Below are positions 57,931 through 64,000 of a stretch of 64,000 bases of DNA, piece after piece. Every line of letters starts with the position of its first letter. Position 1 is the stretch's first letter. Below the pieces are notes generated by a model that did not search any database, had not been told where the DNA came from, and saw only the letters and a list, made by a program, of their open reading frames with translations. The stretch comes from Megamonas hypermegale (GTDB lineage Bacteria > Bacillota > Negativicutes > Selenomonadales > Selenomonadaceae), in assembly GCF_900187035.1 (NCBI RefSeq), contig NZ_LT906446.1, positions 496,001-560,000 of the forward strand, written 5' to 3'. The translations under genes were made by a program, and so were the position numbers.

Positions 57931-58695
57931 TTGAAAAAGCTCGTAGTAGTTGGCAAAATTTTAGTTAATGAAGCCATTAATGTTAATGTGAAGCGCATGG
58001 TTATAGATGCACCACAAATTGCTGATTTAGCACAGCCTGGACAATTTGTGCATGTAAAAAAAATGGACAGCGTTAATTTTTTACGTCGTCCATTTAGTAT
58101 TGCTGATGTGAATAAAGATGAAGGTACTATTACTTTAATTTATCGTATTGTAGGTAAAGGAACAGCTGAATATTCTGAACTTAAAGTAGGAGAACAATTC
58201 AATATCTTAGGACCAATCGGCAATGGTTTTGAATTAAAATCCGGCAGACCATTATTGATTGGTGGCGGTGTTGGTATCGCTCCACTCATCTATTTAGCTC
58301 GTAAATTAAAAGATGAAAAACCGATTTTATTAATCGGTGGTAAAAATAAAGATGAAGTTTTCTGGAAAGATTATTTAGAAGAATTTGCTGATAAAATCTA
58401 CATCACAACAGATGATGGTTCTGTTGGTTTCAAAGGTTTTACAATTCAGCTTTTACCACAGATTTTAGCAGAAAACAAAATCGAACATATCTACACTTGC
58501 GGCCCAAATATAATGATGGAAGGTGTAGCTAAACTTGCTCATGAACAAGATATTGACTGTCAAGTTTCATTAGAAAAACGCATGGCTTGCGGTATCGGTG
58601 TTTGTCTTGGTTGTACTTTTGAAGGCAAATTGACAAAGAAAAGACGCAAGGTTTGCACAGAAGGACCTGTATTTCCATCTAAGGAGGTTTTTTAA
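57931..58695 (+). CDS. pyrK: dihydroorotate dehydrogenase electron transfer subunit
   Basis: FAD/2Fe-2S subunit that passes electrons from PyrD to NAD. FAD is held by RRPFSIADV and YRIVGKGT; the NAD site is GGGVGIAPLIYLA. The Cys cluster CGIGVCLGC with the final Cys in RRKVC binds 2Fe-2S. The start is TTG at 57931 with AGGAGGG upstream; the GTG at 57907 lies before this RBS. The stop is directly adjacent to the pyrD start. Confidence 0.93.
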   Translation: MKKLVVVGKILVNEAINVNVKRMVIDAPQIADLAQPGQFVHVKKMDSVNFLRRPFSIADVNKDEGTITLIYRIVGKGTAEYSELKVGEQFNILGPIGNGFELKSGRPLLIGGGVGIAPLIYLARKLKDEKPILLIGGKNKDEVFWKDYLEEFADKIYITTDDGSVGFKGFTIQLLPQILAENKIEHIYTCGPNIMMEGVAKLAHEQDIDCQVSLEKRMACGIGVCLGCTFEGKLTKKRRKVCTEGPVFPSKEVF

Positions 58696-59601
58696 ATGAA
58701 TTTAGCTGTAAAGATTGGTAATCTTGAATTAAAAAATCCTGTAATGGGTGCTTCAGGAACTTTTGGTTTTGGTAAAGAATATGAAGATTTTCTCGATGTA
58801 AATGAAATCGGTGCAATCGTAACAAAAGGTGTTACACCAAAACCGCGTGCTGGCAATCCAGGCGTTAGAATTGCAGAAACTCCTGCTGGTATGCTTAACT
58901 GTATCGGTCTTGAAAATCCGGGTGTAGATGCTTTTATCTGTGATATCTTACCTAAAATAAAAAAATACAATACAGCTGTTATTGTAAATATTTCAGCAAG
59001 CACAGTAGAAGAATATGCTGAAATGGCATGGCGTTTAGATATTGATGGCGTAGATGCTGTAGAAGTAAATATTTCTTGTCCGAACGTAAAAGAAGGCGGT
59101 ATCGTTTTCGGCACAGACCCAAAAGCAGCCGCTGCTGTAACTCGTGCAGTAAAAACGCATACAAGCAAAACTGTAATTGTAAAATTATCACCAAATGTAA
59201 CGGATATCACTGTTATGGCAAAAGCTGTTGAAGAAGCTGGCGCAGATGCAATTTCTATGATAAATACTTTAACTGGTATGGTAATTGATATAAATACAAG
59301 AAAACCACTTTTAGGCAATATAACTGGCGGACTTTCTGGCCCAGCTGTAAAACCAGTAGCAGTACGCATGGTATGGCAAGTTGCAAAAGTTGTTAAAATT
59401 CCTATCATTGGCATGGGTGGCATCACTTGTGCTGAAGATGCTATCGAATTTATGCTTGCAGGAGCAACCGCTGTAGCTGTTGGTGCTTATAATTTCGTTG
59501 ACCCATCTGCTTTAAAAGTTGTAGCTGATGGCATTGCAGATTATATGAAAAAACACAATATTGAAGATGTAAATGAACTTATAGGAGCAGTACAAGCTTA
59601 A
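58696..59601 (+). CDS. pyrD: dihydroorotate dehydrogenase B, catalytic subunit
   Basis: Oxidises dihydroorotate to orotate, fourth step of pyrimidine synthesis; class 1B, working with PyrK. FMN-binding motifs are [31 protein letters not shown] and [11 protein letters not shown]. The catalytic Cys is in [12 protein letters not shown]. 301 residues is standard. The ATG follows GGAGG and is contiguous with pyrK. No other pyr genes are in the window. Confidence 0.95.
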
Positions 59602-59609
59602 AATTAAGA

Positions 59610-59720
59610 TTTTACCAGGTGTATTTTTGATAAATAATCTATAAAGCTAAGAAATATAAGCTTTTGAAGCGGTTTTTTAGCATGACTATAAAAAATCAAA
59701 ATCGCCTGGTAAAATTTTTT
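59610..59720 (+). terminator. large stem-loop with U-run after pyrD
   Basis: TTTTACCAGG at 59610-59619 and its complement CCTGGTAAAA at 59705-59714, then TTTTTT. The loop of about 85 bases contains a smaller hairpin (AAGCT / AGCTT near 59643-59667). It probably ends pyrKD and shields the CRISPR leader behind it. Confidence 0.6.
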
Positions 59721-59727
59721 CATATCC

Positions 59728-59756
59728 TTGAATACCAAGGGTTTAGAGATTATAAT
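59728..59756 (+). promoter_or_regulatory. CRISPR leader promoter
   Basis: TTGAAT (59728-59733), exactly 17 bases of spacer and TATAAT (59751-59756), 28 bases before the first repeat. The small palindrome CCTTG..CAAGG (59726-59740) overlaps the -35. Confidence 0.6.
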
Positions 59757-59783
59757 AAAAAAAGAAACCTTGATAAATAGAGG

Positions 59784-62118
59784 GATTAATAGCAACATAC
59801 GATGTATTTGAATCAAAAATATAGCATAAATAAAAAATAGTTTTTACTGGATTAATAGCAACATACGATGTATTTGAATACAAAATAAGTTTTATCAATT
59901 ATTTTTTTCTGGATAGATTAATAGCAACATACGATGTATTTGAATTTGCTTGCCCCTAAAATAGAGCCTAAAAACATTGCTGATTAATAGCAACATACGA
60001 TGTATTTGAATGAAATTAATCCAATAAATGACCATAATAAATCTTCGATTAATAGCAACATACGATGTATTTGAATTTTTATATTCCTCCAATTTTAATA
60101 TCCGCAGTTTATGATTAATAGCAACATACGATGTATTTGAATACGTTTGTTAATGTATGTTGGATATGGATACATAGGATTAATAGCAACATACGATGTA
60201 TTTGAATTTCCCCAAATAAAACCAAATAATTATTGTTCGTATAAGATTAATAGCAACATACGATGTATTTGAATTGAATAAAAGCAATTTCATTTTCTTT
60301 TATTCCTTGATTAATAGCAACATACGATGTATTTGAATGAATTTATTTGGGATGACAGACCCGAACATGGCTAAGATTAATAGCAACATACGATGTATTT
60401 GAATATTCTGTAACGTCTATTGTTGGCCACAATTATTTTAGATTAATAGCAACATACGATGTATTTGAATAAAGCAGCTTATGTAACAGGTACAGCACTT
60501 CTTGCGATTAATAGCAACATACGATGTATTTGAATTAAGTTTTTGCGTTTGCCACTTTATTTCCTCCTTTCTGATTAATAGCAACATACGATGTATTTGA
60601 ATTTGTAATGGCATTTTATACGGGAAACAAGACAGTCGCGATTAATAGCAACATACGATGTATTTGAATAATGTTATTTTTCGTGATGACATTATTATGT
60701 ATAGCGATTAATAGCAACATACGATGTATTTGAATTTGACTAAATAAAAGATGTTTTCATTGCCAATTTTGGATTAATAGCAACATACGATGTATTTGAA
60801 TGGAACTATTTCCTACAGGTAAAAAGTTGATTATTACGATTAATAGCAACATACGATGTATTTGAATTCTATTGAATATAGAAAAGCGTTTATGAATTAT
60901 GTGATTAATAGCAACATACGATGTATTTGAATTAATATATTCACCATTTGATACACCGATTAATCTAGATTAATAGCAACATACGATGTATTTGAATGTA
61001 AGTGTATTTGACCAATACAATATGCTTGAAAAAGATTAATAGCAACATACGATGTATTTGAATGCGCAAGGCTTGTACTGGTCTGACGCTCCAGAAACAG
61101 ATTAATAGCAACATACGATGTATTTGAATCTGAGTAAAAAGTATTGATTTTATTGGGTTTGTGGCGATTAATAGCAACATACGATGTATTTGAATCTATC
61201 CAGCTGTTTCAAGAAAAAAGAATCAACTTTAGATTAATAGCAACATACGATGTATTTGAATTTGATTGGTGCAAATGTTCTACTTTTAGATGTTAAAGAT
61301 TAATAGCAACATACGATGTATTTGAATATTGCACTTCCGTTACCAAAACCACGATTCCAGCCGGATTAATAGCAACATACGATGTATTTGAATTGCGCGC
61401 TCCAAATATTGCCAACAGCACCAACAACAGATTAATAGCAACATACGATGTATTTGAATGACGTTGCGAAATTACAGCTTATTAACGGAGGTTAGATTAA
61501 TAGCAACATACGATGTATTTGAATTCTGTTGGGACTTCTTTACCAATGTCTTTAGCAGCTGATTAATAGCAACATACGATGTATTTGAATGCTTGAAATT
61601 TTCGTTGCGGTTTTGATGCTAAAATTGATTAATAGCAACATACGATGTATTTGAATTTTTTTAAATTATTTAATTGTTCTTGAGCTGATTTGATTAATAG
61701 CAACATACGATGTATTTGAATGTATCTAAGTTATCCAATATCCAAAATGCTAACTTTGATTAATAGCAACATACGATGTTTTTGAATCCCAAATTTCCGT
61801 TTCCGCCTGCCCACGCTCGGCTGATTAATAGCAACATACGATGTTTTTGAATTTTGGTATTGTGTAAGTATGTTGTGTTTTTAATACGATTAATAGCAAC
61901 ATACGATGTTTTTGAATTTTACGATTGCGCGGGCGTCTATAATAGTCTGCATTACGATTAATAGCAACATACGATGTATTTGAATTAAGTGTAAACATTT
62001 ACAATTATGTTCAATTATGTGGATTAATAGCAATATATGATATATTTGAATTCTATAACTATTTGTGTTAAAATCTTTTGACGTTGAAGATTAATAGCAA
62101 TATAAAATATATTTAAAT
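59784..62118 (+). CRISPR. CRISPR array, 36 repeats, 35 spacers, no cas genes in the window
   Basis: The 30-base repeat begins GATTAATAGC and ends GTATTTGAAT; repeats start every 64-68 bases from 59784 to 62089, with spacers of 34-38 bases. Repeats 1-30 are identical as far as I compared; 31-33 (61758, 61823, 61888) all carry A to T at repeat position 23; 34 (61956) is consensus again. Repeats 35 (62022) and 36 (62089) are progressively degenerate. A degenerate right end and a promoter-bearing AT-rich left flank show the leader at 59602-59783 and transcription on the + strand. The repeat length and TTTGAAT end hint at a type I-B-like system; this is weak without cas genes. The spacers cannot be traced here. 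Confidence 0.97.
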
Positions 62119-62141
62119 GATAAATGATAAAAGAAGGTGAT

Positions 62142-62510
62142 ATGTTGGACGGTATACTAGAAATGTTGTTTTTTTGTTTAATTTTAGGTCTTATTCCTGC
62201 TTTGATTGCTAGTAATAAAGGTCGTTCGTTTGTTTTATGGTATATTTACGGCTTTTTCCTTTTTATAGTTGCTCTTGTACATGCTCTTTGTATTAGTAAA
62301 AATGATGATGCTTTATTAAAACAAGATGATAGTTTAAAGAAATGTCCTTATTGTGCAGAAATAATAAAAAAAGAAGCTATAGTTTGTAGATACTGTGGTA
62401 GAGACTTACCACCTGTAAAAGAGGAAAAAAACAATGACAATAATGATGATGATTATGAACCATCTGATTATATTAAAAGTATAATTGCAAGTAGAGAAAA
62501 ATATAAATAA
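62142..62510 (+). CDS. two-helix membrane protein with C-terminal zinc ribbon
   Basis: About 122 residues: two hydrophobic segments ([37 protein letters not shown]) separated by NKGRS, then the zinc ribbon [22 protein letters not shown], then an acidic Asn/Asp-rich tail. Similar small membrane proteins with KGRSF between the helices are widespread and uncharacterised. AAGGTG supports the ATG at 62142; the in-frame ATG at 62124 lies before it. The gene begins only 23 bases after the last CRISPR repeat, so any promoter must be inside the degenerate array end. Confidence 0.7.
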
Positions 62511-62760
62511 TTTATATTGTGATAGTTTTTTTGACATTAGGATAAAGATTTTGTTTATAAAATTCATGTGTAGTTTTTTTGTAAGAATTTTTTATTTATT
62601 TTATATGAATATATTAGTAAAATTATGTACAGAGAAATACAATTAATATAAAATGGATAGAGAATTTTAATAGAGGTATATAATAAAATAGGGTTTAATC
62701 TGTTAGATTATTAGATATAATAAATGATTAATAAAACAATGATTATTTTATAAAAAGTTG
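62511..62760. other. intergenic AT-rich stretch without recognised features
   Basis: No ORF with a plausible ribosome binding site, RNA gene or clear hairpin is seen between the zinc-ribbon gene and the infC promoter. Confidence 0.5.
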
Positions 62761-62789
62761 TTGACAGCCTATTTTTATTGTGCTATAGT
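62761..62789 (+). promoter_or_regulatory. infC-rpmI-rplT promoter
   Basis: TTGACA (62761-62766), a 17-base spacer and TATAGT (62784-62789), near consensus. About 190 bases of leader separate it from infC. Confidence 0.8.
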
Positions 62790-62795
62790 ATTCAC

Positions 62796-62989
62796 GTTGC
62801 ATTTGTTAATGTGTTTTCAAGTAGAGGTCACCGCTTCTCACCTTATGGCGCGCAGTCAGTAGGGTTACTTATTAAAAATTAAAGTTATAATGTTAATTAT
62901 TTAATTTGTAATATCAGAGGGTGACGTAGGTCATCCTCTTTTTTATCGCGAATATTATATAAAAATTTATAAATAATGAGGTGTTTCCT
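62796..62989 (+). promoter_or_regulatory. infC operon leader with attenuator, L20/IF3-type control
   Basis: The leader contains a structured 5' part (AGAGGTCACCGCTTCTCACC at 62823-62842) and an intrinsic terminator AGAGGGTGAC / GTCATCCTCT (62916-62939) followed by TTTTT. GTCACC in the 5' part is complementary to GGTGAC in the terminator's first arm, so the two can form competing antiterminator and terminator states. The L20 leader of Firmicutes sits in this position; whether this one responds to L20 is inferred. Confidence 0.65.
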
Positions 62990-63544
62990 ATTAGTAAAGA
63001 ATCTTTAAGAGTTAATGGTGAAATCCGCGCTAGAGAAGTTCGTGTTACCGACGTAAAAGGTGCTCAACTAGGTATCATGTCTACAAGAGATGCTCTGCGC
63101 AAAGCGGAAGAAGCTCATCTTGACTTAGTTGAAGTAGCGCCAAAGGCTAAACCGCCTGTTTGCCGTATCATGGATTTTGGTAAATATCGCTATGAACAGC
63201 AAAAACGCGAAAAAGAAGCTAAGAAAAAACAAAAAGTTATTAGTGTAAAAGAAGTAAAACTTCGTCCTGGTATTGAAACACACGATTTTAACTTCAAAGT
63301 AAAAAATGCTTTGCGTTTTATTGCTGAAGGCAATAAAGTAAAAGCTACAATAATGTTCCGTGGCCGTGAGCTTTCACATCCAGAAATGGGCCGTGAACTC
63401 TTATTAAAAGTTGCTGAACAGATGAAAGACGCTGTTACTGTTGAACGCGAACCTAAACTTGAAGGTAAAAATATGATTATGATTTTAGCGCCTAAAGTAC
63501 AAAAAGCGCAAACTAAAGGAGGAAAAACTAATGCCAAAAATTAA
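62990..63544 (+). CDS. infC: translation initiation factor IF-3
   Basis: 184 residues: N-domain [18 protein letters not shown], a basic linker ([30 protein letters not shown]) and the C-domain [21 protein letters not shown]. The reading frame has no ATG at the expected place. GAGGTG at 62978-62983 is 6 bases before ATT at 62990 (ATT AGT AAA GAA), while the in-frame GTG at 62981 is part of that same ribosome binding site. ATT is therefore the likely start, as in infC of E. coli and others, where it allows IF-3 to limit its own synthesis. It overlaps rpmI by 14 bases. Confidence 0.95.
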
Positions 63545-63728
63545 AACTCGCAGAGCTGCAGCTAAACGTTTTACAGCTACAGGTTCTGGTGAATTCAAAC
63601 GTAATAAAGCTTTCAAAAGCCATATCTTAGAAAAGAAATCACCAAAACGTAAACGTAATTTACGTAAAGCAGCTATCATCACTGCTGCTGACCATAAACG
63701 CGTAAGCAAAATGCTTCCATACGCTTAA
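63531..63728 (+). CDS. rpmI: 50S ribosomal protein L35
   Basis: 65 residues, highly basic, [20 protein letters not shown] through [11 protein letters not shown], matching L35. AAAGGAGG in the end of infC precedes the ATG, which lies inside infC. Confidence 0.97.
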
Positions 63729-63766
63729 TTGTTTGATTATATTGTAGAAATTTAGGAGGGTAAATA

Positions 63767-64000
63767 ATGCCAAGAGTAAAAAGTGGCGTAACCGCTCATG
63801 CACGTCATAAAAAAATCTTAAAATTAGCTAAAGGTTATAGAGGAGCTAGAAGCAAACAGTTCAAAAAAGCTAACGAACTTGTTATGAAAGCTCTTTATTA
63901 TGCACGCAGAGACCGTCGTGCTAAAAAAGGCGAATTCCGTAGATTATGGATTGCTCGTATCAATGCTGCTACTCGTGCTAACGGTATGTCTTACAGCCGT
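63767..64000 (+). CDS. rplT: 50S ribosomal protein L20, 5' part
   Basis: The first 78 codons to the window edge: [19 protein letters not shown], then the [14 protein letters not shown] segment and [19 protein letters not shown], which are L20. TAGGAGGG precedes the ATG. The C-terminus lies outside. In relatives L20 binds the operon leader. Confidence 0.97.

Follow-up and report, generated by a model that had tools for sequence, protein, structure and literature searches.

Which Cas proteins serve a long CRISPR array that stands between housekeeping genes? The array in question, array A, lies in a 64,000-nucleotide stretch of the Megamonas hypermegale genome (G000; 2,230,342 bases, single contig, 99.99% complete). 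This stretch, G000:C1:496001-560000, is called the window, and the coordinates of array A and of its parts are window coordinates. An earlier note on the window had read 36 repeats between 59784 and 62118, a reading that proved exact.

59784..62118, + strand: CRISPR array A, 36 repeats and 35 spacers
61758..61917, + strand: repeats 31-33 with the spacers between them, carrying T for A at repeat position 23
62022..62118, + strand: degenerate leader-distal end, formed by repeats 35 and 36

The repeat of array A is 30 nt long (n = 36 copies), and its 35 spacers measure 34-38 nt, with no two alike. Repeats 1-30 and 34 are identical (31/36), so that the near-uniformity described for the first 30 repeats is in fact complete. 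A genome-wide search with the repeat pattern, allowing up to 3 mismatches, returned 36 matches, all at array A and on the + strand, against none for the reversed pattern, which excludes a chance origin. Array A is a genuine CRISPR array, with regular repeats, unique spacers of even length, a leader with a promoter-like site on the left, decaying repeats on the right, and a spacer matching a mobile element (spacer 28, discussed below). As the earlier note had stated, it is flanked by housekeeping genes, with pyrD (PF01180) to the left and infC (PF05198/PF00707) to the right. A 128-aa zinc-ribbon ORF (window 62124-62510) lies between the array and infC, beginning five bases past the last repeat. 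An L20 leader-like RNA was detected 5' of infC (window 62813-62952; 46.9 bits, E=3.5e-7, gathering score of 58.7 not reached). Apart from it, the Rfam search of window positions 58600-64000 returned a chance-level sRNA match (E=0.82) and no CRISPR-related family.

None of the genome-wide Cas1, Cas6 and RAMP matches falls in the window, in agreement with the previous reading that it holds no cas gene, and none lies in the stretch to its right, so that these searches gave no sign of cas genes just outside it. The same genome does contain a complete type I-B operon, on the minus strand at ~1168044-1177066, ~0.61 Mb from array A. Its genes are transcribed in the order cas6, cas8b, cas7, cas5, cas3, cas4, cas1, cas2, with 8/8 frames open, and the genome has a single Cas1. 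The proposed full-genome search for the same repeat and a cas operon thus located the repeat at array A only and one complete I-B operon. The type call combines NCBIfam and PADLOC, the Cas8b name coming from PADLOC alone (PDLC01507, 4.9e-181), as NCBIfam gave no name for this protein; the operon also matches Cas5b, Cas1b, Cas6b, Cas3b and Cas4b. Its Cas3 carries HDLG and SAT motifs and a GSGKS loop, and a DExH box was not found with the patterns used. With a cas operon bearing the cas8b signature in the same genome, array A is a candidate type I-B array, and it is not an orphan array in the sense of one whose genome has no matching cas system. Between cas5 and cas3, both here and in a second Megamonas species (G001), stands a solo repeat that is CRISPR-like but has no TTTGAAT end:

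G000:C1:1172572-1172593: solo repeat, just before cas3
G001:C1:728362-728383: solo repeat, just before cas3

This solo repeat may act as a regulatory element or provide a Cas6 site within the cas mRNA.

Two further cas loci were found in the M. hypermegale genome. A type III-D locus (~2138-2149 kb) encodes a Cas10d with GGDD, a Csm3-like protein, Csx10, Cas7 proteins, Csx19 and a CARF protein. It has no cas1 and no Cas6 match above cut-off; the match at 2143882-2144175 is weak (17.3 bits, cut-off 58.65). A 642-aa protein encoded between the CARF protein and Cas10d (L101:2782-4710) matched nothing in PADLOC or Pfam at E<=0.001; it may be an ancillary effector. In addition, a second, solitary Cas6 (~658 kb, L108:10038-10778), whose frame is open and which shares 53% identity with the operon Cas6, follows a gene that we take, from its sequence, to be glyS.

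Including array A, the genome carries at least ten arrays, whose repeats fall into three families. Array B adjoins cas2 of the I-B operon and has 22-23 repeats (22 by pattern, with one more shortened copy inside the last long interval), and array C (733.3-734.8 kb) has 25 repeats of the same family as those of A and B. Array D (658.8-659.6 kb; 12 repeats) stands beside the solitary Cas6, and its repeat belongs to another family. The mini-arrays E1-E6 (6, 6, 4, 3, 7 and 4 repeats with a 6-mismatch pattern; 2122.3-2137.5 kb) stand just before the III-D locus. Five of these six have near-copy leaders, with repeated small reading frames interleaved; the mini-arrays differ in the last four repeat bases, and two adjacent spacers of E2 look identical by eye. 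All 101 spacers of arrays A, B, C, D and of array F, found in the second species, are distinct (101/101).

By eye, the repeats of array A and of the cas-side array B are identical at 25/30 positions, and positions 15 and 19 change jointly (T-A for A-T), preserving a stem pair. This pair is part of a 4-pair stem formed by columns 12-15 with 19-22, in which 48/48 cells pair across 12 variants of the A/B/C/F repeat family; both partners are changed at 15/19 in 4 rows and at 13/21 in 2 rows, and slid stem controls gave 25-63%. The count omitted repeat C24, two degenerate B copies and the truncated last F copy, as well as the solo repeats by cas3 and families D and E. In shuffles, 0/500 reached the observed values for cells paired, changed cells and covariation score, and 139/500 and 448/500 did so for the other two measures; these figures overstate independence, since all six changed stem cells come from array A and amount to about two events. 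Single-sequence folding with ViennaRNA returned the proposed stem for the repeat of B and not for those of A, C and F.

The leader of array A occupies the interval between pyrD and the first repeat and contains the following features.

59602..59783, + strand: leader of array A, from the pyrD stop to repeat 1
59612..59618, + strand: inverted repeat of the leader, distal arm TTACCAG
59706..59712, + strand: inverted repeat of the leader, proximal arm CTGGTAA, 78 nt ahead of repeat 1
59728..59756, + strand: promoter-like TTGAAT-17-TATAAT

The leader promoter that had been proposed is thus present as sequence. With leader and promoter-like site on the left and repeat decay on the right, array A grows from the pyrD side, and recent acquisition, as the earlier note had argued, is plausible. 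The leader region holds 5 promoter-like sites, compared to 2.3 +/- 1.5 in shuffles. Furthermore, a TTGA-TATA pattern recurs at a like position in 10/11 leaders (those of the ten G000 arrays A, B, C, D and E1-E6 and of array F of G001), which lends support to the promoter reading.

The proximal arm starts 76-79 nt before the first repeat in 11/11 leaders, as CTGGTAA in 9 and TTGGTAA in 2, and a TTACCAG-like arm lies upstream of it at 92-94 nt (A, B, C, D, F) or 58-70 nt (E1-E6). In a test with 300 dinucleotide shuffles on six leaders (A, B, C, D, E6, F), leader A paired with each of the other five beats all 300 shuffles; the pairs B-E6 (62/300 reach the score), B-D (70), E6-D (92) and F-D (8) do not rise above them. 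A blastn search of leader A against its own genome (best 40 of 69 candidates) returned itself, a 19-nt match round the CTGGTAA arm in the E5 leader (E=0.19) and other weak matches away from arrays, with none at B, C, D or the other E leaders. The kinship of the leaders therefore rests on shuffles, alignment and motif spacing. Outside the 7-base core, the arms fit their own partner better than permuted partners (39/10,000 permutations reach the observed sum), in a test of 8/11 leaders that omitted E2, E3 and E5 as near-copies and ignored the kinship of the leaders. The excess stems from A, B, E6 and, slightly, E4; in D, E1 and F the own partner is about as good as those of others, and in C it is worse. 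The motif may act as an adaptation anchor, a promoter element or a terminator. That it is a mere terminator of the upstream gene (here pyrD), unrelated to CRISPR function, would suit the position of the inverted repeat in A, directly 3' of pyrD and followed by T-rich sequence, but we consider this unlikely given the fixed spacing between proximal arm and first repeat in all leaders despite differing upstream sequence. A terminator scan, limited to loops of 3-8 nt and blind to this inverted repeat, found none there.

The second species, G001 (100% complete), is the sole other genome of the genus in the comparison set. It also carries an array between pyrD and infC, array F, with 11 repeats of sequence GATTAATAGAAACAAGAGTTGTATTTGAAT, and the array site is therefore probably older than both species. 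The leaders at this site are 84% identical over 172 nt, and none of the 10 spacers of array F equals any of arrays A, B, C or D. In G001, ~230 bases separate the array from infC, and the zinc-ribbon ORF is thus absent from that place. This genome retains cas6, cas8b, cas7, cas5 and cas3, all as open frames and with 58-87% identity to their M. hypermegale counterparts. A search for Cas1 scored 5 candidates, of which none matched. Only ~100 bases lie between its cas3 and two decayed repeats, so that cas4-cas1-cas2 are missing from their place. These observations suggest that the pyrD-infC array of G001 outlived the adaptation genes. The solitary Cas6 has a counterpart there as well, after glyS (L111:10380-11126), with no array found beside it.

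Compared to 189 family genomes (2 candidates scored per genome), array A with its leader matched 6 at E<=0.001, and outside the genus the matches were all short (~30-60 nt). A scan of 8 named relatives among the 55 pyrD loci found no array at the site; this absence outside the genus is weak evidence, as the scan needed exact 16-mers 45-90 bases apart and its infC motif gave 0/8 matches.

Four spacers of array A are informative as to its targets and its relation to other loci.

60471..60505, + strand: spacer 11 (A11), 35/35 to a gene of its own genome at G000:C1:1878774-1878808
61130..61165, + strand: spacer 21 (A21), 30/36 to plasmid HG796412 (pRGI00992, uncultured bacterium), flank TGA
61591..61626, + strand: spacer 28 (A28), 36/36 to plasmid HG796856 (pRGF00250, uncultured bacterium), 5' flank TCA
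61918..61955, + strand: spacer 33 (A33), resembling spacer 3 of array B (B3) by eye

The match of A28 (E=2e-7) is the sole full-length foreign match among the 35 spacers in the collections searched; both plasmids are presumably of gut origin. A7 has a weak match (29/37, flank CGA). In array C, spacer 22 (C22) matches 37/37 at two places of G001 and 35/37 on a M. funiformis plasmid, with flank TCA in all. A 5' TCA thus flanks the full-length matches of two spacers, A28 and C22, and the partial matches of A21 and A7 differ. In a study of the Clostridioides difficile I-B system, the PAM is given as YCN, with TCA functional and TCN weaker than CCN (PMC8406132), and the TCA flank observed here would fit such a type I-B PAM.

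Most spacers had no match in the collections searched. The suggested comparison of spacers with phage and plasmid databases therefore yielded a perfect plasmid match and no full-length phage protospacer, the latter when the phage collection was searched by blastn with arrays A, B and C and two of the six mini-arrays (E1 and E2). Among the best 40 of 207 records for array A in that collection, spacer 11 matched a PTS gene of a Streptococcus phage (33 nt, 93.9%, E=1e-3) and 38 nt over spacer 17 matched a Terrisporobacter phage head gene (86.8%, E=0.06); the Staphylococcus phage matches among these 40, most of 23 nt at E=0.7, were taken as chance. Arrays B and F gave nothing convincing against plasmids, and exact cores of five spacers of A and one of B had no match in IMG/VR. 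A33 and B3 would represent one target family in two versions, suggesting that both arrays met related invaders; the combined A33/B3 pattern matched no contig in IMG/VR.

The self-target of A11 is a fused PTS EIIA-EIIB-EIIC gene. On its 5' side the target is flanked by AAC, and TCA lies two bases farther away; in this one case, the spacer may have slipped by two bases. A11 has the sense orientation relative to the mRNA, and its crRNA could therefore not pair with the PTS transcript; given this orientation and a flank that is AAC and not TCA, the self-match is tolerable without the system being inactive. Array A showed no other full-length self-match (best 40 of 82 and 40 of 70 candidates), A5 matching partially (24 nt, E=0.005; 25/36 over the entire spacer), and no self-target was found for the spacers of B, C and D (n=56, E<=0.01, best 40 of 96 candidates).

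Most likely, array A belongs to the genome's type I-B system as a dispersed array that was inherited vertically and is served in trans. Its reliance on Cas proteins encoded elsewhere, which the earlier note had offered as one of two options, is supported by the completeness of the I-B operon and by the related repeats and leaders of both loci. Building on the observed array and operon, the likeness of leaders, the stem-keeping repeat change, the site conserved in the second species and the one perfect plasmid match, we propose that transcription of array A would start at the leader promoter, that the operon Cas6 would cleave each repeat at the short stem and that Cascade (Cas8b-Cas7-Cas5) would take up the resulting crRNAs. 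Cas3 would then degrade plasmid or phage DNA beside a TCA motif, and the single Cas4-Cas1-Cas2 set would add spacers at the leader end, guided by a leader resembling those of the other arrays.

The other option, that array A is a remnant, finds no support for the bulk of the array: it still has its leader and promoter, 31 repeats are identical and decay is confined to repeats 35-36. As a main reading, a Cas-less or relic array was rejected in view of the complete I-B operon in trans. It is very unlikely that array A is an inactive relic, neither transcribed nor extended and retained by chance, even though its distal repeats decay, the perfect self-target of A11 is tolerated and the array of G001 persists in a genome that yielded no Cas1 and lacks cas4-cas1-cas2 at their usual position. 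The uniformity of its repeats, a leader conserved across species and a stem preserved despite change all speak against such a relic, and the flank and orientation of the A11 self-target make inactivity unnecessary to explain its tolerance.

Type I and type III systems are known to share crRNAs, and the III-D locus, which is present without cas1 and without a Cas6 match over the cut-off, might thus be the main user of array A crRNAs, alone or with the I-B effector, with the I-B system giving only Cas6 and Cas1-Cas2. The III-D locus, however, has adjoining mini-arrays of its own with a different repeat, and the TCA beside the targets of A28 and C22 suggests an effector that acts on DNA and uses a PAM, making this arrangement quite unlikely. 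Processing of array A by the solitary second Cas6 in place of the operon Cas6 appears highly improbable: that gene has an open frame after glyS and a counterpart at a like place in G001, but it adjoins array D, whose repeat is of another family, and the G001 counterpart is retained at a site where no adjoining array was found.

The dispersed I-B array that we favor is an ordinary arrangement, and array A itself adds little beyond annotation, other than the caution that a window without cas genes says nothing about the genome. The similarity of leaders across three repeat families is the more interesting part. We tentatively entertain, as a possibility that we would not call likely, a leader-defined network in which one Cas4-Cas1-Cas2 set recognizes CTGGTAA at ~-78 and its TTACCAG-like partner arm and feeds ten arrays of three repeat families, with the repeat, and not the leader, routing spacers to the I-B or the III-D effector. 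If this were true, array A would be one channel of a shared memory. Among the matches listed for literature naming Megamonas and CRISPR, none is about these arrays, judging by titles and the start of abstracts.

Several aspects of this arrangement are found in known systems. Like M. hypermegale, C. difficile combines I-B machinery with several arrays and a usable TCA PAM (PMC8406132), its arrays having very different expression levels and some being located in prophages (PMC8406132). In M. hypermegale the repeats fall into three families with leaders alike. Genomes often carry several arrays at variable distance from the Cas locus, and distant arrays are shorter than near ones in most types, including I-B (PMC12814883). 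Contrary to this trend, the distant array A has 36 repeats and the cas-side array B 22-23, which is mildly unusual. The degenerate solo repeat near the cas genes, before cas3 in both species, resembles ectopic repeats and CreTA modules (PMC9458426). It differs from these in that M. hypermegale has 57 bp between cas5 and cas3 and one repeat, which lies outside array A.

A precedent for the proposed joint use of one Cas1 by arrays with unlike repeats is Flavobacterium columnare, in which the II-C Cas1 serves a VI-B array in trans and leader recognition through shared motifs has been proposed (PMC8092290). In F. columnare the arrays belong to different CRISPR types and spacer acquisition has been demonstrated (PMC8092290), whereas in M. 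hypermegale acquisition through the one Cas1 is a proposal. With ten arrays, three repeat families, one leader design and one Cas1, and with a sister species that retains the array site and in which no Cas1 was found, M. hypermegale offers a setting in which it can be tested whether the leader or the repeat decides the destination of a spacer and the effector that reads it.
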